Shown here piece by piece: positions 2,076 through 14,815 of a stretch of 64,000 nucleotides of DNA. The position numbers and the translations under genes were made by a program. Source of the DNA: a bacterium (lineage in GTDB: Bacteria > Hinthialibacterota > Hinthialibacteria > Hinthialibacterales > Hinthialibacteraceae); contig WGLV01000059.1 in NCBI GenBank assembly GCA_016125385.1, positions 1-64,000 on the forward strand. Direction: 5' to 3'. Below the pieces are notes generated by a model. It saw only the letters and a program-made list of their open reading frames with translations, searched no databases and was not told where the DNA came from. Each line of letters starts with the position of its first letter. Position 1 is the stretch's first letter.

Positions 2076-4724
2076 ATGGACTTCAACCGTTTCACACAAA
2101 AATCACGTGAAGCCGTCATGAGCGCGCAGAATCTCGCCATCGAGAAAAGCCACATGGAAATCGATGTGGAGCATCTCGCGCTGGCATTGCTGCGTCAGGA
2201 AGACGGCCTGATTCCCCGGCTGTTGCGCAAGATCGGCGCGCCGTTGGAAAGCCTCGATCAACATCTGAGCGATGAGTTGAATCGGCGTCCCAAGGTGAGC
2301 GGCCCTGGACGCGATTCAGGCTCGGTTTACGCATCCAATCGGCTGAACCGTACACTGACCCAGGCTGAAAAAGAAGCGAAATCGCTGAAAGATGAATTTA
2401 TCAGCGTTGAACACCTGATGCTGGCGATGCTGTCCGGCTCGGTTTCCTCACCCGCCGTTGATTATTTCAAACAGGCTGGCGTAACGCGGGACGCGTTTCT
2501 GAAAGCGCTGATGGAAGTGCGCGGTAATCAGCGCGTCACCAGCGAATCGCCGGAAGCGACCTATGACGCGCTCTCCCGCTTCGGTCGTGAACTGGTGGCG
2601 GACGCGGCTGCGGGAAAACTCGATCCCGTCATCGGCCGCGATGGCGAGATTCGCCGCGTGATCCGCATCCTGTCGCGCAAAACGAAAAACAATCCAGTGT
2701 TGATCGGCGAGCCGGGCGTGGGCAAAACCGCCATCGTTGAGGGTCTCGCCCACCGCATCGTTCGCGGCGACGTGCCCGAAGGATTGAAGAACAAAAAAAT
2801 ATTCGCCCTCGATATGGGAGCGCTGGTGGCCGGCGCCAAATATCGCGGCGAGTTTGAAGAACGTCTCAAAGCGGTATTGACCGAAATCAAAAACAGCGAT
2901 GGAGAGATTCTTCTCTTTATCGACGAACTCCACACCATCGTGGGCGCGGGACGAGCCGAAGGCGCCATGGACGCGGGCAACATGCTTAAACCCATGCTGG
3001 CGCGCGGCGAGCTGCACTGCATCGGCGCCACCACACTCAATGAATACCGGCTGCATATCGAAAAAGACGCCGCGCTCGAACGCCGCTTCCAGCCGGTGCT
3101 GGTCGAACAGCCCAGCGTCGAAGACGCCATCTCGATTCTGCGCGGTCTGAAAGAGCGCTACGAGGTGCATCACGGCGTCAAGATTCAGGACAACGCGCTG
3201 GTCGCCGCCGCCACGCTCTCGAATCGATATATCACCGAACGATTTCTGCCTGACAAGGCGATCGACCTCGTTGACGAGGCCTGCGCCAAAATCCGCACGG
3301 AAATCGACTCGATGCCGACCGAGCTCGACGAAGTCTCGCGCAAGATCATGCGGCTTGAGATCGAAGAACAGGCGCTGGGTAAGGAAAAAGACGCCGCCAG
3401 CAAAGACCGCCTCGCCACGTTGCGCCGTGAACTGGCCGATCTGCGCGACCAGGCCAACAGCATGAAGGCGCAGTGGGAATCGGAAAAAAGTGCGATTCAG
3501 GGCATTCGCGATCTGCGTGAACAGATTGACGGGGTCAAACGCGAGATCGAACAGGCCGAACGCGATTACAACCTGTCGCGCGCGGCGGAATTGCGCCACG
3601 GCCGGCTGCCTGACTTGCAGCATCAGCTGGCGGATCGGGAAAAAGCGATGCTCGATCCCGTGAACGGCCAGCGTTTTCTCCGCGAAGAAGTCACCGAGGA
3701 GGAAATCGCCGAGATCATCTCCCGCTGGACCGGCATCCCCATGACGCGGCTGATGGAGGGCGAACGTGAAAAACTGTTACGCCTCGCCGACTTGCTGCAT
3801 GAACGCGTGATCGGGCAGGATGAAGCGGTCGACGCCGTCGCCGACGCGGTGGTCCGCGCCCGCGCGGGCATCAAAGACCCGCGCCGCCCAATCGGCTCCT
3901 TCATTTTCCTTGGCCCTACCGGCGTGGGAAAAACCGAACTGGCCCGTACGCTGGCGCACGCCCTGTTCGATTCGGAAGAGAATATGATCCGCATCGATAT
4001 GTCGGAATACATGGAGAAGCACAGCGTTTCCCGATTGATTGGCGCGCCTCCGGGTTACGTGGGCTTTGAAGAAGGTGGACAATTGACCGAAGCCGTTCGC
4101 CGGAAGCCGTATTCAGTAATACTCTTCGACGAGTTTGAAAAAGCGCATCACGACGTGTTTAACATCCTGTTGCAGATTCTCGACGATGGCCGGCTCACCG
4201 ATTCGCAGGGCCGCACCATCGATTTTAAAAACACGGTCGTCATCATGACCTCCAACATCGGCTCCGAACATCTGCTCGACGTTTCGATGCAGCGCGGCGA
4301 GATCAACCAGGAGGCGAGAGACCGGGTCATGAACGAACTACGGCTGCATTGCCGGCCGGAATTTCTCAACCGCGTCGACGACATCGTCATGTTCAAGACC
4401 CTGCGGCTGGAAGAGATCGAGCGCATCGTCGAACTGATGCTGAATGAACTGCGCTCCCGGCTTGAATCGCGGCGTCTCACCTTGACGGTTACGCCCGCCG
4501 CGATGGAACATCTCGCCGTATCGGGTTACGACCCGGTGTACGGTGCGCGCCCCCTGCGCCGGTTGATCCAGAAAGAACTGGAAAACCGCCTCGCGCGCGA
4601 GTTGATCAAAGGCGAGATTCTCGATGGCGCGGAGATCGAAGTAGACGTAAAAGAAGGCGAAATGACGATATCCCACCGAAATCCGGCGCTGGAAATCGGC
4701 GCGCAACAACCTGTGGTTGCGTAA
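2076..4724 (+). CDS. clpB: ClpB protein disaggregase (Hsp100)
   Basis: This is a full-length 882-residue ClpB, an ATP-driven ring that pulls proteins out of aggregates together with DnaK. Domains in order: two Clp N repeats (about 1-150); first AAA+ module with Walker A GEPGVGKT at 211-218 and Walker B near [10 protein letters not shown] (about 279-288); a long coiled-coil M domain (about 415-535), which separates ClpB from ClpA and ClpC; second AAA+ module with Walker A GPTGVGKT near 612 and Walker [11 protein letters not shown] near 682; and the D2-small C-terminal domain. The start is fixed by TTGGAGGTGAAGC just before the ATG. The gene stands alone and ends at a strong terminator. No CIRCE element or clear heat-shock promoter is visible upstream. 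Confidence 0.97.
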
Positions 4725-8524: not shown

Positions 8525-9313
8525 ATGGGCTTTCGGAATCCATGCAGGAGTGAATGGCGTCTATTTATTTCCATGATGAAAAATCCGCTTCTTCAACGTT
8601 CGATTCGAGGGAACAATTCATTATTGGGCCGGTTGAATCTCCGGCTGGAATCGTGTGAATCGCTGATACAGCGCCTCCAGCAATCAGGCGTTCTCGATGC
8701 GGTGACCATGTTCGAGAGCTATAACGAACTCTCGGATATCGCCTCGGTCGCGGAAAATTGCGTTCAGCCTCTGATTGATCTGGAGCAGCAAATACTGGAA
8801 AAGAAGGAGGCGATTCCCGGTTACGATGAATTGTCGGACGCTCAGGACCGCATTCGCTTTCATCGGGATCGCGGCGAACATGACATCGCCGATACGCTGG
8901 AAAGCGAATGGGGCGAGCGGATCGAATCGTTTCAGACGATTCGTGCTGAGATCGACGCGCTGTTGCATCAGGCCCGGTTGTTCCGCTTTGATTTTCTTCG
9001 TCAACAGAGCCGCCTGACCGTTCTTGAGTACAAGTTGCTTACCCGGCTGGTCGCATCGGACGCACGCCGCCTGCTTGAGCGGATTCAATCCGGCGACAAC
9101 GGCGAATGGTCTGAATACAAGGCGCTTCTACAAACCTGGTCCGAACCGCCGGACGTCCAGCCTCGCACCATTCACCCATCCGATTCCATCGAACGAAAAA
9201 TCGCTCTGCTGGAAAATGAAATCATCTCAATCGAAGACGATATCAAAAACCGCCTGATGAAAAACAAAGCGGTGATCGATCGAATCAAAAACCTCATTCT
9301 GCAGCGCGCCTGA
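8525..9313 (+). CDS. coiled-coil protein of unknown function, paralog of the previous gene
   Basis: A 262-residue soluble, highly charged helical protein begins 22 bases after the previous stop and is probably co-transcribed with it. Its central part (about 85-185) matches the central part of the preceding protein in pattern and in several identical positions. The end (about 225-262) is another coiled coil. Two in-frame ATG codons at 8573 and 8576 would give a protein about 17 residues shorter. An AGGAG at 8547-8551 lies rather far upstream of these, so the start is unresolved. No function is proposed. Confidence 0.7.
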   Translation: MGFRNPCRSEWRLFISMMKNPLLQRSIRGNNSLLGRLNLRLESCESLIQRLQQSGVLDAVTMFESYNELSDIASVAENCVQPLIDLEQQILEKKEAIPGYDELSDAQDRIRFHRDRGEHDIADTLESEWGERIESFQTIRAEIDALLHQARLFRFDFLRQQSRLTVLEYKLLTRLVASDARRLLERIQSGDNGEWSEYKALLQTWSEPPDVQPRTIHPSDSIERKIALLENEIISIEDDIKNRLMKNKAVIDRIKNLILQRA

Positions 9314-9419
9314 ACTTGAAGATTCACTCTCTCGTTTCACTGATTTGATTCACTCCGATTTCGCGATGAAACAACACTCGATTTCATTCCGCTTCAATCT
9401 CTACAGCCCCTTTTATTAA

Positions 9420-9433
9420 GCCTGAATTCAGGC
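9420..9433. promoter_or_regulatory. 14-base perfect palindrome upstream of the candidate RNA promoter
   Basis: GCCTGAATTCAGGC is a self-complementary palindrome with no loop, 19 bases upstream of the TTGACG box at 9453. A loopless palindrome is more typical of a dimeric repressor or activator site than of an RNA hairpin. It could also occur by chance. Confidence 0.25.
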
Positions 9434-9452
9434 GGATTTCATAAAAAAAATG

Positions 9453-9481
9453 TTGACGTGAAGGAGCCGGGCGAGTAGAGT
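9453..9481 (+). promoter_or_regulatory. sigma70-type promoter
   Basis: TTGACG (5/6) and TAGAGT (4/6) are spaced by exactly 17 bases, the best promoter match seen in the window. The predicted start is near 9488. No protein-coding start follows for about 490 bases, which fits a non-coding transcript. Confidence 0.45.
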
Positions 9482-9487
9482 ATTGGT

Positions 9488-9746
9488 TGAAGGGACAAAG
9501 CGGCTGATTCCAGAGCGAACTCAGCCAAGGTTCCTACCGGGAGGGCGACAGGAATCGCCCAGTGAAGCACGGCGCCCCATCTATTTCGCCTGTTTCACCA
9601 AATAACCCCATCGCTAGAATGGGGACCACGGAAAGGGTTGGCGTTCTATGAATGGAGAAACGCCGCCGGATGAATGAAGAAGGAGCCATCCGAAATCGTT
9701 CCGATGGCTCCTTCTGGCGTTGAGGGCCCATTTTAGTTGTTTTTTT
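9488..9746 (+). ncRNA. candidate structured non-coding RNA
   Basis: Five hairpins follow the promoter: GGCTGA/TCAGCC (9502-9507 with 9521-9526), GGGCGA/TCGCCC (9543-9548 with 9555-9560), CCCCAT/ATGGGG (9606-9611 with 9619-9624), GGCGTT/AACGCC (9640-9645 with 9659-9664), and a perfect 12-base stem GAAGGAGCCATC/GATGGCTCCTTC (9679-9690 with 9703-9714). A T-run follows at 9740-9746. An imperfect pairing of 9481-9491 with 9594-9604 could close the first two hairpins into one domain. No signature of tmRNA, RNase P RNA, SRP RNA, 6S RNA or a riboswitch class was found. It could instead be a long 5' leader of the gene at 9979. Confidence 0.4.
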
Positions 9747-9978
9747 GCCTTGATTTAAACCACTCATTCAATTTCGATTTCATGCTGCAAATTCAGCCCC
9801 TTCACCAATCCTCATTTTTCGCGGTTTTCCCATTCCGAATGGCCGGTAAAATACGTATAATTCTGCGGAGTATTTTCGATCCGCTTGTAATAGCAGGTTG
9901 TATACGAATCGAAAATCAAACCCGATCGGAATCAGACGGCTCAGTCTGACAGGGATTAGCAAGAAGGACATCAACTGA

Positions 9979-11415
9979 ATGAAGTGGCCAACCATAATTC
10001 AAGGCGGAATGGGCGTAGGGGTTTCAAACTGGAACCTCGCCAAAACGGTATCCCGGCTGGGACATCTGGGCGTTGTTTCAGGAACGGCGCTTGATTCCGT
10101 CTTTGCTCGCCGTCTCCAGAACGGCGACCCGGGCGGACACCTGCGCCGTGCGTTAAATCATTTCCCCGTATCGGACATCGCGCACCGCGTTTACGAGAAA
10201 TATTTCATCCCCTGCGGCAAAGCGATCGATCAGGCGTTCAAACGCATCCCCATGTATACGCTGACGCCCAGCCGTCATCTGTTCGAAGTGACGCTGTGCG
10301 CTAATTTCGCGGAGGTCTTTCTGGCGAAAGAAGGACATTCAGGATGCGTGGGAATCAACTACCTCGAAAAAATTCAAATGCCCAACCTGGCTTCGATCTA
10401 CGGAGCCATGCTCGCGGGCGTGGATTATATTCTGATGGGCGCGGGCATCCCGCGTGAAATTCCCGGCATTCTCGATCTGTTTTCCAATCATGAAGACGCC
10501 ACGCTGCGGGTTCGAGTCGATAACGACGACGAAGCCTACCCGATGACGTTCTCTCCCAGAGACATCGTCGGCGAACTTCCCCACCCGCTGCATCGTCCCA
10601 ATTTTCTCGCCATCATTTCATCCGCCACGCTCGCGGTCACGCTGGCCCGCAAGTCATCCGGACAGGTCAATGGATTCGTCGTCGAAGGGTATGACGCGGG
10701 CGGGCACAACGCGCCTCCCCGTGGACACATGCTGCTCGACGAAAACGGCGAACCGGTTTACGGCGAGAAAGACGATATCGATCTCGCGAAAATCCGGGAC
10801 TTGGGCCTGCCTTTCTGGCTGGCGGGTTCGTATGGCGATCCCTATCGCGTTCAGGAAGCGCTCGATCAGGGCGCGGCCGGCGTACAACTGGGGACCCCGT
10901 TCGCATTCTGCCGCGAATCGGGTCTGGAAGATCATGTCAAGCAGCAGGTTCTCGACCAGATTAAATCCGGTGAAGTATATGTAAAAACCGACGCCAAGGC
11001 GTCACCCACCGGTTTCCCCTTCAAAGTCGTTCAGCTGGATGAAACTCTTTCGGAATTTGAAATGTATCAGCAACGCCCCCGCGTCTGCGACCTTGGCTAT
11101 CTGAGAACGCCGTTTAAAGATGAAGAAGGCCGCATCGGCTATCGTTGTCCATCCGAACCAGTTGAAGAATACCAGCGGAAGGGCGGCGATCCCGAAGCGA
11201 CTCGGGGCCGAAAGTGCCTTTGCAACGGTTTGTTCGCCAACATCGGTCTCCCTCAATTACAGCGCTCGGGTTATACCGAAAAGCCGTTGTTAACTTCCGG
11301 CAAAGAGATTTCTCTGATTCGACGTTTCATGCAGAACGGAGAGACGTCGTATTCCGCCGAAGACGTGATTCACGCGCTCTGCCCTCAACATCAGGTTGAG
11401 CCCGCCGTTGCATGA
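9979..11415 (+). CDS. nitronate monooxygenase-family flavoprotein
   Basis: This 478-residue protein belongs to the 2-nitropropane dioxygenase/nitronate monooxygenase TIM-barrel family, which binds FMN and oxidises alkyl nitronates. PfaD-type enoyl reductases share the fold. Visible features are the N-terminal IIQGGMGVGVSNWNLAKTVS, the glycine-rich VEGYDAGGHN region (near 235-245) and the phosphate-binding segment LAGSYGDP through GAAGVQLGTPFAF (about 278-310). The protein is longer than typical family members: the C-terminal 110 residues form an extension with several cysteines (RGRKCLCNGLFANIGL), a possible metal-binding part. The start has AAGAAGGA about 11 bases upstream. The true substrate is unknown. 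Confidence 0.85.
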   Translation: MKWPTIIQGGMGVGVSNWNLAKTVSRLGHLGVVSGTALDSVFARRLQNGDPGGHLRRALNHFPVSDIAHRVYEKYFIPCGKAIDQAFKRIPMYTLTPSRHLFEVTLCANFAEVFLAKEGHSGCVGINYLEKIQMPNLASIYGAMLAGVDYILMGAGIPREIPGILDLFSNHEDATLRVRVDNDDEAYPMTFSPRDIVGELPHPLHRPNFLAIISSATLAVTLARKSSGQVNGFVVEGYDAGGHNAPPRGHMLLDENGEPVYGEKDDIDLAKIRDLGLPFWLAGSYGDPYRVQEALDQGAAGVQLGTPFAFCRESGLEDHVKQQVLDQIKSGEVYVKTDAKASPTGFPFKVVQLDETLSEFEMYQQRPRVCDLGYLRTPFKDEEGRIGYRCPSEPVEEYQRKGGDPEATRGRKCLCNGLFANIGLPQLQRSGYTEKPLLTSGKEISLIRRFMQNGETSYSAEDVIHALCPQHQVEPAVA

Positions 11416-11440: not shown

Positions 11441-11472
11441 AACAGCCGCTTCATCGAAGCGGCTGTTTTTTT
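11441..11472 (+). terminator. intrinsic terminator after the nitronate monooxygenase gene
   Basis: ACAGCCGCTT / AAGCGGCTGT is a 10-base stem with loop CATCG, followed by seven T. It overlaps the last bases of the converging kinase gene, whose stop lies at 11471. Confidence 0.88.
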
Positions 11473-14400
11473 AATCGAGAATCCGCCGGATTTTCCGGAG
11501 GAGCACCCCCGCGGTGAATGGCTTCTGAAGAAATTGCAACCCGGTATCAAGCACGCCATGATGAACGATCGCGTTTTCCGTATAACCTGAAATGTACAAG
11601 ACCTTCATATCCGGTAAGATTTTCAACGCCTGATTGGCGAGTTCGCGCCCGCTGATTCCAGGCATGACGACGTCGGTCAGCAGCAGGTGAATGTCGCCTT
11701 TTTGTTTATTGATTGCCTGAAGCGCTTCATCTCCCCGTGAGGCGCTCAACACCCGATAACCATGTTGTTCGAGTGTTTGAACGATCAGTTCACGCACCAG
11801 CGTTTCATCCTCGACCACCAGCACGGTTTCATTTCCATTCAATTCCAGAATTTCAGGACGAGGCGTGTTTAAATCTTCCTCCTCGCCCTCAACCAGCGGC
11901 AGATAAATCTTGACCGAGGTTCCCTGCCCCGGCTCGCTGTAAATCCAGATGTTGCCGCCGCTCTGTTTGACGATGCCGTAAACCATCGATAATCCGAGCC
12001 CGGTTCCCTTGCCTTTTTCCTTGGTTGTGAAGAAGGGTTCGAACACGCGCTCGAGCGTATTCCGATCCATGCCCACGCCGTCGTCGCTGACGGCGAGCAT
12101 AACGTGAGGCCCCAAATGGGCTTCAGGATGACGCTTCACGTAGGCTTCATCCAGTTCGACGTTACTCGTTTCAATCGTCAGCGAGCCCCCATCCGGCATG
12201 GCGTCGCGGGAATTGATCGCGAGATTCACGAGCACCTGCTCGATCTGCCCCGCATCCGCGACGATCGAGCCCAAATTGGGATCGGGGATGGTTTTCAGTT
12301 CGATATTTTCGCCGATAAGCCGCCGCAACATGCCATCCATCTCAATGATGAGATCATTCAGATCGATCACACGAGGCTGCATCACCTGTTTACGGCTGAA
12401 CGCGAGCAGCTGCCGTGTCAGCGCCTCCGCCCGTTCTCCCGCTTTTTTGACTTCAAGTATATGTTTGCGCACGGGCGAGGCGGCATCGAGCATGGTGACC
12501 GCCATGTCGCTGTAGCCCAGAATGGCGACCAGCAGATTGTTAAAGTCATGCGCGATGCCGCCGGCCAGCCGGCCCACCGCGTCGATCTTCTGCGTTTGCC
12601 TCAACTGATCTTCGAGCTTTCGTTTTTCTTCTTCCGCCTGTTTTTGTTCGCTGACGTCGATCACGGCGAAAATGTTGATCTGCTGAGTCTCGATCGGGAT
12701 GCAACTCAAGTTGATGGTGCGCTGGTCCTGATTTTGATTGGCGATCTGCAATCCATCCCATTTCATTCGCGCTGGATCGCCGCTGACGATATCGTCGTAT
12801 ATCCGCTTCATCCAGTATTCACGCAGTACGGGGTCTGGAAACAGGTAGTGATAAAATGCGTTTCGGTCTTTCAGCACTTCGCGCGGCCATCCATGTATTT
12901 CGACGTACCGGTCGTTGATATAAAGCGCTTCTCCATTCAGGCGCTGATTGACGGCGATTCCGATCGGAAGGTTATTCAGAATCGTCTCGATAAAATCATT
13001 TCGTTCCGCGAGTTCATGCTCAAACAACTTGCGATCCGTGATATCGAGTTGCGACCCGGATGCTCGCACCGGTTTGCCTGATTCGTCCCGTTCAACCACC
13101 TTGCCGCGATCGAGCACCCATTTCCACTCGCCCGTTTTCGTCATGAGGCGGTATTCCATCTCGAACATGGGAGTTCGGCCACGCAAATGATCGTACCAGG
13201 CCCGTAAGATGGCGCGCTTGTCATCCGGATGGATCAGACTCAACCACATTTCAATGGATTGGGTGAACTCCGGCATGGAATACCCCAGCAGGTTCTCCCA
13301 TTGTTCATTGACGTACGCCAGACCGGTTTGTGGATACCAGTCCCATATCCCCAGATTCGCGCCCTGCAAAGCCAGCTCAAGCCGCAGCTGGCTTTCCTGC
13401 AGCGCCATCTCGGCGTTTTTCCGGTCCGTGATGTCGCGCCCGACTGACTGGTATTCGAGAACTTTGCCGGTTTCATCGAAAATGGCGCGATCGATCCAGT
13501 GTTGCCAAACAATCTCACCATGCCGCCAGGCGCGGTGTTCATCCTCACGCGTTGGATGATCTTTGGTAAGCGAGCGAATTTTTTCGACGACCGATTCCCG
13601 ATCCGCGTCCGGAATCAGATCGAGAAAATTGACGCCGATCACCTGCTTTCGAGTTAATCCGAAATACTGGCAATAAGCCTGATTCGCAAATTGGATCGTG
13701 AAGTCCCTGTTCCAGCGCACGACGAAATCCGTTTGATCTTCCACAATCGAACGGTACCGGGCTTCGCTATCACGCAACGCTCTTTCGGCGCGTTTCCGTT
13801 CCGTGACGTCCTCTCCTGAGCTCAGCGTACCGACAACGGCGCCGGATGAATCGTACAAAATCCTGTTGCGCCACAAAATCTCCCGGATTTCCCCGGACTG
13901 GGTCACAACGCCGTTTTCAAACCACTCGTATTTTTCCGTCTCGTTTTCAAGCAGTGTTTGAAATGCCTTGCTGAGTGTTTTTCGATCAGAGGGGGCGATG
14001 AACTTTTCAAACCATGGAAATCCTATAATTTCTTCTTCCGGATAACCGAGCGTCTGACATCCCATGCGGTTGATCAGCGTAACGACCCCGTTTCGGTCGA
14101 GAACGACAATAATCACCCCGGCGATATCCAGGTATTGCTGGGCTCGATCGCGTTCGTCCCGCAGGGCTGATTCCGTCATCTTCCATTCGGTGATGTCCTG
14201 AAGGATTCCGAGGCATCCGATGACGACGCCCTGTTCGTCACGGATCTGAACCGCCGCGTTTGCGATCCACTTTTCTTCGCCGCGTGTGGTTTCGATCCGG
14301 TAGTCGGCCCGCCAGTTGAGGCCTTCCTCGCTGCGAGCTCTTCTGACCGCTTCTTTTGGCTGCATTCCGGCGAATGGACCAACCATGATGATTTCCCGCA

Positions 14401-14815
14401 CCAGCGATTGCCAGGTCGCGGGGTTGAATTCTTCGGGCTTATACCCCGTAAGCGCTTCAACTTCCTCGCCGAAAAAGTCATAGGTGTTCGTCAGATAATT
14501 CTGATAATACGGAACCGCGTTGGCTAACTCGATCGCATCCCGGTACGCGTGCTCCCGGTATTCCAGCGTCTGACGTGAATGAGATGGATCCGCTGAGGTC
14601 GATTGGAGGGGGCTTGCTTGATCGAAACGTTCTCTGATTGCGCGCCAATAATACCCGGCGATCAATCCTATTCCGGCCGCCGCGATCGTCAGAAACCAAT
14701 CGCCGCCGGAAAGCCCAAGGCATGCTGGCGAAGGAGAAACAATCATTGATCGGGAGAACAGATCGGCTCTCAACAATTCATAAACATCGTTCAAAAAGAC
14801 ATAAGATGCAAACAT
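11471..14815 (-). CDS. multi-PAS hybrid sensor histidine kinase
   Basis: The 1114-residue kinase has a single N-terminal membrane segment (about residues 37-56), then about five PAS/PAC modules (starting near 80, 215, 350, 470 and 610). These are followed by the dimerisation/phosphoacceptor helix with GGIAHDFNNLLVAILGYS (His near 754), a HATPase domain with N-box NLAINSRDAMPDGG, DDGVGMD and FEPFFTTKEKGKGTGLGLS, and a C-terminal receiver (phosphoacceptor Asp in LLLTDVVMPG, near 1047). The HDFNN form of the H-box is typical of PAS-type hybrid kinases. With almost no periplasmic part, it probably senses cytoplasmic ligands or redox state through the PAS domains. An internal Met 24 residues in could be the real start. 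The partner regulator is unknown. Confidence 0.93.
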   Translation of the reverse strand: MFASYVFLNDVYELLRADLFSRSMIVSPSPACLGLSGGDWFLTIAAAGIGLIAGYYWRAIRERFDQASPLQSTSADPSHSRQTLEYREHAYRDAIELANAVPYYQNYLTNTYDFFGEEVEALTGYKPEEFNPATWQSLVREIIMVGPFAGMQPKEAVRRARSEEGLNWRADYRIETTRGEEKWIANAAVQIRDEQGVVIGCLGILQDITEWKMTESALRDERDRAQQYLDIAGVIIVVLDRNGVVTLINRMGCQTLGYPEEEIIGFPWFEKFIAPSDRKTLSKAFQTLLENETEKYEWFENGVVTQSGEIREILWRNRILYDSSGAVVGTLSSGEDVTERKRAERALRDSEARYRSIVEDQTDFVVRWNRDFTIQFANQAYCQYFGLTRKQVIGVNFLDLIPDADRESVVEKIRSLTKDHPTREDEHRAWRHGEIVWQHWIDRAIFDETGKVLEYQSVGRDITDRKNAEMALQESQLRLELALQGANLGIWDWYPQTGLAYVNEQWENLLGYSMPEFTQSIEMWLSLIHPDDKRAILRAWYDHLRGRTPMFEMEYRLMTKTGEWKWVLDRGKVVERDESGKPVRASGSQLDITDRKLFEHELAERNDFIETILNNLPIGIAVNQRLNGEALYINDRYVEIHGWPREVLKDRNAFYHYLFPDPVLREYWMKRIYDDIVSGDPARMKWDGLQIANQNQDQRTINLSCIPIETQQINIFAVIDVSEQKQAEEEKRKLEDQLRQTQKIDAVGRLAGGIAHDFNNLLVAILGYSDMAVTMLDAASPVRKHILEVKKAGERAEALTRQLLAFSRKQVMQPRVIDLNDLIIEMDGMLRRLIGENIELKTIPDPNLGSIVADAGQIEQVLVNLAINSRDAMPDGGSLTIETSNVELDEAYVKRHPEAHLGPHVMLAVSDDGVGMDRNTLERVFEPFFTTKEKGKGTGLGLSMVYGIVKQSGGNIWIYSEPGQGTSVKIYLPLVEGEEEDLNTPRPEILELNGNETVLVVEDETLVRELIVQTLEQHGYRVLSASRGDEALQAINKQKGDIHLLLTDVVMPGISGRELANQALKILPDMKVLYISGYTENAIVHHGVLDTGLQFLQKPFTAGVLLRKIRRILD

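Follow-up and report, generated by a model that had tools for sequence, protein, structure and literature searches.

The question raised by this locus is whether the stretch between a coiled-coil gene and a nitronate monooxygenase gene, within an analysed window of 64,000 nucleotides of contig sequence, encodes a structured RNA of a new kind, and whether such an RNA serves the gene downstream or acts on its own. A sequence-only reading had proposed a novel structured RNA here, on the strength of a promoter match followed by five hairpins spread over some 215 bases and the lack of any recognisable RNA signature. A single sequence would leave that case open; at the level of the family, it is now held with high confidence that an uncatalogued structured RNA family is present. 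This part of the proposal is borne out by homologues, compensatory changes, a conserved promoter of its own, and the lack of a matching Rfam family, while the view of the RNA as purely non-coding is not, because a conserved ORF of 8-10 codons lies inside it.

In what follows, G000 denotes the genome with the window, G001 that of a sister genus, and G001 to G005 the other searched genomes of the same bacterial family. The first covariance model, R1, was built from two sequences, the copies of G000 and G001, the latter being 71% identical and situated at the equivalent position upstream of a nitronate monooxygenase gene. Searching with R1 returned full-length copies in G004 (G004a; 81 bits), G002 (64 bits), and G003 (57 bits), as well as a divergent second copy in G004 (G004b). 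Two side-by-side copies in G005 (G005a and G005b) and one partial copy at a contig edge in G002 (G002b) were added by the models R2 and R3, bringing the comparative basis to nine copies, eight complete and one partial, in all six searched genomes of the family. Two scans, covering 386 and 385 genomes, were centred on G000 and G011 and overlapped for the most part; neither produced a credible copy outside the family, so that the other ~380 genomes covered are without the RNA. The strongest R3 match outside the family, in G135, was rejected as a terminator-like hairpin only; weak R3 matches in G011 and G013 were rejected as fragments, and the remaining sub-threshold R3 matches outside the family were likewise not accepted. 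When GTDB contigs were searched for the exact pattern of the H1-H2 core, three sites came up, none of which matched R1.

The observation that no known RNA signature is present also held. No Rfam 15 covariance model scored above its gathering cut-off in the window, at the homologous loci, or in relaxed scans; the relaxed scan of 9300-9990 returned Yfr11, HgcE, VrrA, and others at E values of 0.5-10, which is chance level. Three well-known structured RNAs were located elsewhere in the genome. tmRNA, too, is structured and has a short reading frame inside it, but here no tRNA-like domain is seen and the frame has its own Shine-Dalgarno sequence and ATG; the window has no RF00023 match, and the tmRNA of the genome lies at C12:3177-3531. 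6S RNA and RNase P RNA resemble the present RNA in being structured, free-standing RNAs of bacteria, and their size is similar or larger. Neither RF00013 nor RF00010 matches in the window; the RNase P RNA of the genome is at C15:1162-1526, and its best 6S match, at G000:C2:127699-127877 (L052), reaches 37.6 bits, below the cut-off. Together with its counterpart at G001:C76:71743-71920 (L053; 36.2 bits), it fails a Rfam cut-off that relatives pass, and the two are candidates for divergent 6S RNAs. As a separate observation, the best tmRNA match in G004 covers a tRNA-sized stretch at 33.7 bits, compared with 193-221 bits in the sister genomes, and the gene may be missing from that assembly.

The structured RNA extends over 9486-9717 of the plus strand according to the models R1 to R3, which match in all six genomes; the transcript would start at about 9488, giving an RNA gene of about 230-250 nt. 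The sigma70-type promoter noticed earlier, TTGACG-17-TAGAGT, is indeed present at 9453-9481 of the same strand. On its own the match means little, because only nine of twelve consensus positions agree and 1.3 sites of this quality are expected by chance in the local scan; its conservation in the homologues, adjoining the RNA, is strong. At the equivalent place, -35 and -10 elements with 17 nt between them fit in G001, where the TTGACA-17 block is conserved, and in G002, G003, and G004a (spacers of 17 and 18 nt scoring about equally in G002 and G004a), while G004b carries TATAAT there, so that promoter-like sites adjoin the RNA in the core copies and in G004b. The G005 copies have TTGCCA-18-TATAAT, located further upstream than in the other copies. 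In G005a (L073, minus strand, about 170 nt upstream of 1736; G005:C14) this promoter lies about 150 nt 5' of the model start, with a second P1/H1-like element after it; the 5' region appears extended, and the 5' domain may be duplicated. At the other end, the T-run reported after the hairpins is a T7 run at 9740-9746 (plus strand), a possible 3' end, though it lies 25 nt beyond the last stem and is not conserved in the nearest homologue; in its place, TTT(T) stands 3-5 nt past H6 in most other copies.

The plus strand folds at -105.2 kcal/mol, compared with -84.5 kcal/mol for 200 dinucleotide shuffles (z = -4.0), and its minimum-energy fold contains P1, H1, H2, H3, H5, and H6. Four helical elements (P1/H1, H2, H3, and H4) make up the 5' 140 nt. 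P1 (9491-9496 with 9530-9535) closes the 5' domain and has changed on both sides in all six of its pairs (matched-arm permutation p = 0.0001); inside it lies H1 (9502-9510 with 9517-9526, one bulge), with double changes in five of nine pairs. H2, GGGCGA-N6-UCGCCC at 9543-9560, is near-invariant in sequence in the core copies. A GGA in its loop in the window copy is not conserved, and CsrA-type GGA loops were set aside. H3 consists of an outer stem (9564-9568/9592-9596) and an inner stem (9572-9574/9587-9589), with double changes in seven of eight pairs; the inner stem is capped by a GUGA tetraloop in the other core copies but not in that of the window. H4 (9606-9611 with 9619-9624) shows double changes in five of six pairs. 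H5 (9640-9645 with 9659-9664), which carries the start codon described below in its loop, keeps its pairing in 91% of alignment cells and is mostly invariant, with one compensatory pair, in G005a. Last comes the perfect 12-base stem of the original description, H6, a terminator-like hairpin (GAAGGAGCCAUC/GAUGGCUCCUUC) at 9679-9690/9703-9714, paired in 99% of cells with arms that are largely invariant in sequence among the copies.

Compensatory changes can already be read between the copies of G000 and G001, P1 showing A-U to U-A and G-C to A-U, and H3 showing A-U to G-C and G-C to C-G. MAFFT, applied to these two sequences, puts H4 and H5 out of register, and reading by hand gives pairing stems for both; the counts were taken from an eight-copy alignment, A8. 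In A8, which was fitted to the covariance model and so favours the structure, 93.4% of cells pair and 28 of 53 pairs have changed on both sides, compared with a shuffled mean of 14.1 (sd 2.5), none of 500 shuffles reaching 28; the covariation score is 0.414 versus 0.194, and sliding the partners by 1-3 columns lowers the double-change pairs to 4-9. When arms were extracted by hand and the 3' arms swapped between copies, P1 (p = 0.0001) and H1, H3, and H4 (p about 0.016) stood out, H2 and H5 being invariant and H6 nearly so. Taken on the aligned sequences, five helices are supported by covariation, and two of the checks that the sequence-only reading had proposed, for conserved homologues and for compensatory changes, turned out in favour of the RNA.

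The same comparison overturned the statement that no ORF with a start signal lies inside. A Shine-Dalgarno sequence, AAAGG at 9632-9636, stands 11 nt 5' of a micro-ORF at 9648-9677 (both plus strand), ATG AAT GGA GAA ACG CCG CCG GAT GAA TGA, encoding MNGETPPDE, and this is the sole reading frame common to the copies. An ATG frame is found in all eight complete copies, with the stop in one alignment column, 1-2 nt before H6; the ATG and stop columns are both common to six of the eight, which encode 8-10 residues. AAAGG stands at 6-11 nt in the six core and near-core copies, and AAAGG or GGAGG lies 6-11 nt before the ATG in seven of the eight, the spacing being longer (15-17 nt) in G005b. ORFs of 18, 27, 30, and 33 nt all preserve the frame, with UGA and UAA interchanging as stops. 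In addition to the window peptide, the copies encode MIGETPPDV (G001), MHKIDAPPEG (G002), MRVQETPTNG (G003), MYNDKTPTET (G004a), MSNTPPEV (G004b), MPMDS (G005a), and MLPSI (G005b), mostly following the pattern M...TP[P/T].. from which the G005 peptides diverge; of the eight complete copies, four have PPD or PPE within the frame. The TP[P/T] core overlaps the 3' arm of H5, and part of its conservation may therefore be structural, at the level of the RNA. For a single copy, shuffles with H5 fixed produced such a frame with a probability of about 0.01, which rose to about 0.05 when the ATG was fixed as well. These figures do not simply multiply because the copies are related. In the partial copy G002b (L077, G002:C169; MLVEDTPPKDV...), read by eye, the usual stop is lost and the frame runs to a UAA in the H6 loop. 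Judged from this comparison, the micro-ORF is probably translated. The conserved shape and the conserved start-to-stop message together therefore look like an uncatalogued RNA that works by brief translation.

Two known systems come closest by layout, although the RNA is a member of neither. In mccA, a ribosome bound to the 7-codon ORF causes transcription to terminate at the next hairpin, and the product is an abundant ribosome-bound short mRNA (PMC6495379). As in mccA, an ORF of at most about 10 codons with a Shine-Dalgarno sequence is followed directly by a terminator-like hairpin, G002b being the exception, but here no maturation genes follow and the ORF comes after a large conserved 5' fold. 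The mccA peptide ends in Asn, unlike the peptide here, and no mccB-like peptide adenylation gene lies beside the RNA, judging from the translations of neighbouring ORFs. The Downstream-peptide or yfr6 RNA (RF01704) likewise places a structured 5' region before a short conserved ORF in an autonomous transcript of ~250 nt, with indels in multiples of three bases (PMC2864571); it differs in its ORF of 17-100 codons, as against 5-10 here, in its helices, and in its lineage, and the RF01704 model does not match. The general kind for an RNA with a predicted translated ORF is that of the dual-function sRNAs, a coding ORF being predicted in about 10% of sRNAs by a survey of ORFs of 10-50 residues (PMC5521070). 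The present RNA shares with them a promoter of its own and a conserved RNA structure, and would share an embedded translated ORF; it differs in its 5-10 residues and in a stop placed against the 3' hairpin.

One of the other explanations is that the RNA serves the nitronate monooxygenase gene as a cis-acting leader; it does precede that gene, by 265-290 nt, in both G000 and G001. In G002 and G004a, however, the next gene downstream of the RNA is convergent, in G003, G004b, and G005 the genes beside it are unrelated to those of the window, and the upstream regions of the monooxygenase genes in G002 to G005 are without the RNA. No same-direction gene recurs downstream, as would be expected of a cis-acting leader or riboswitch for one gene class, and ORF translations reveal no neighbour common to the copies beyond the monooxygenase gene; even the relative of the upstream coiled-coil gene sits on another contig in G001. 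The monooxygenase gene of the window has a TATAAT at 9856-9861, past the RNA and 123 nt upstream of its start, matched in G001 (L026 2272-2277; 123-144 nt upstream in the two genomes), and it therefore probably has its own promoter. As the flanking genes differ between genomes, the RNA is regarded as an autonomous gene, and the leader, which the sequence-only reading had kept as an alternative, is largely refuted and has become extremely improbable. Two observations on the surroundings may be recorded here. Downstream of the monooxygenase gene, the minus strand at 11471-14815 encodes, judged by its translation alone, a large sensor histidine kinase with multiple PAS domains and a receiver-like region at its C-terminus. 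The interval upstream of the monooxygenase gene in G003 (G003:C7, L030 about 2930-3430, minus strand) has a TATAAT box and, after it, a long stretch rich in GC and in hairpins that matches neither the present family nor Rfam, possibly a separate RNA.

The remaining explanations differ in what they make of the frame. The RNA could be purely non-coding, acting in trans or by binding a protein, with the frame a by-product of the H5 loop and an unpaired UGA or UAA before H6; most of the signal does reside in the fold, the peptide is not conserved in G005, and G002b has no stop at the usual place. Against this are a frame kept at four lengths, the exchange of stops, normally spaced Shine-Dalgarno sequences in seven copies, and the lack of any other common frame, and the explanation is considered unlikely. 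A riboswitch-type device in which a ligand-sensing 5' domain controls the micro-peptide, after the manner of the Downstream-peptide RNAs, would account for a complex 5' fold with a Shine-Dalgarno sequence and short ORF in a free-standing transcript of ~250 nt, and the short ORFs and three-base indels described for those RNAs lend it some support. It is nonetheless rather unlikely, for outside the H2 region and the GUGA loop the 5' domain shows only moderate conservation of its unpaired positions, Rfam gives no match, and the peptide is far below the 17-100 residues of those RNAs. Should the peptide itself be the product, as a signal or a modified antibiotic precursor like that of mccA, the fold would only ensure high expression. 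The size and hairpin layout similar to mccA and the TP[P/T] core of most copies fit such a gene, but no biosynthesis or export gene is common to the neighbourhoods, expression alone would not call for a conserved fold of this size, and the G005 peptides are unrelated, which makes this very unlikely.

The reading preferred here, given about an even chance, is that of a free-standing, family-specific RNA combining a conserved fold with a mini-messenger, in other words a translation-dependent (dual-function) regulatory RNA in which a ribosome at the stop codon controls H6. Transcription would start near 9488 and the 5' 140 nt would fold into P1/H1, H2, H3, and H4, after which the Shine-Dalgarno sequence and the start codon in the H5 loop would open the frame of 8-10 codons whose stop abuts H6. 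If this frame is translated, a ribosome at its stop codon would cover the 5' arm of H6 and set whether the hairpin forms, which may determine the end and the stability of the transcript, as the ribosome on mccA does, and/or may free the invariant CUCCUUC arm, which could pair with Shine-Dalgarno sequences. Whereas P1, H3, and H4 covary freely, the arms of H6 (GAAGGAG/CUCCUUC) keep their sequence, a contrast that suggests a role of these arms beyond pairing. PPD and PPE motifs are among the EF-P-dependent ribosome pauses (PMC4140641), and a pause at such a motif would put the ribosome over the 5' arm of H6. Several points count against this reading: no alternative pairing was identified for the ribosome to toggle, H6 is without a strong T-run in several copies, the G005 peptides diverge, and the stop of G002b lies in the H6 loop. 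Argued by analogy, this particular interplay of ribosome and hairpin is put forward tentatively, and an action of the freed CUCCUUC on other mRNAs is speculation. A bolder reading would make this an RNA class that senses translation itself, the speed or release of the ribosome on the minigene switching the 3' end of the RNA or freeing the anti-Shine-Dalgarno arm for other mRNAs; a minigene of 8-10 codons, often with a Pro-Pro-Asp/Glu step of the sort where ribosomes stall if EF-P is missing, does stand directly before a hairpin with Shine-Dalgarno-like and anti-Shine-Dalgarno-like arms, but this reading is thought improbable.

The finding adds to the RNA repertoire of a sparsely sampled bacterial lineage a family that is supported by covariation and absent from Rfam. 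It also indicates that a frame of 5-10 codons, of a size overlooked by gene finders, can be a fixed part of a structured RNA. If it is true that the ribosome on the minigene controls H6, the RNA would represent, in free-standing and trans-acting form, a device so far known as a cis element in mccA-type operons.
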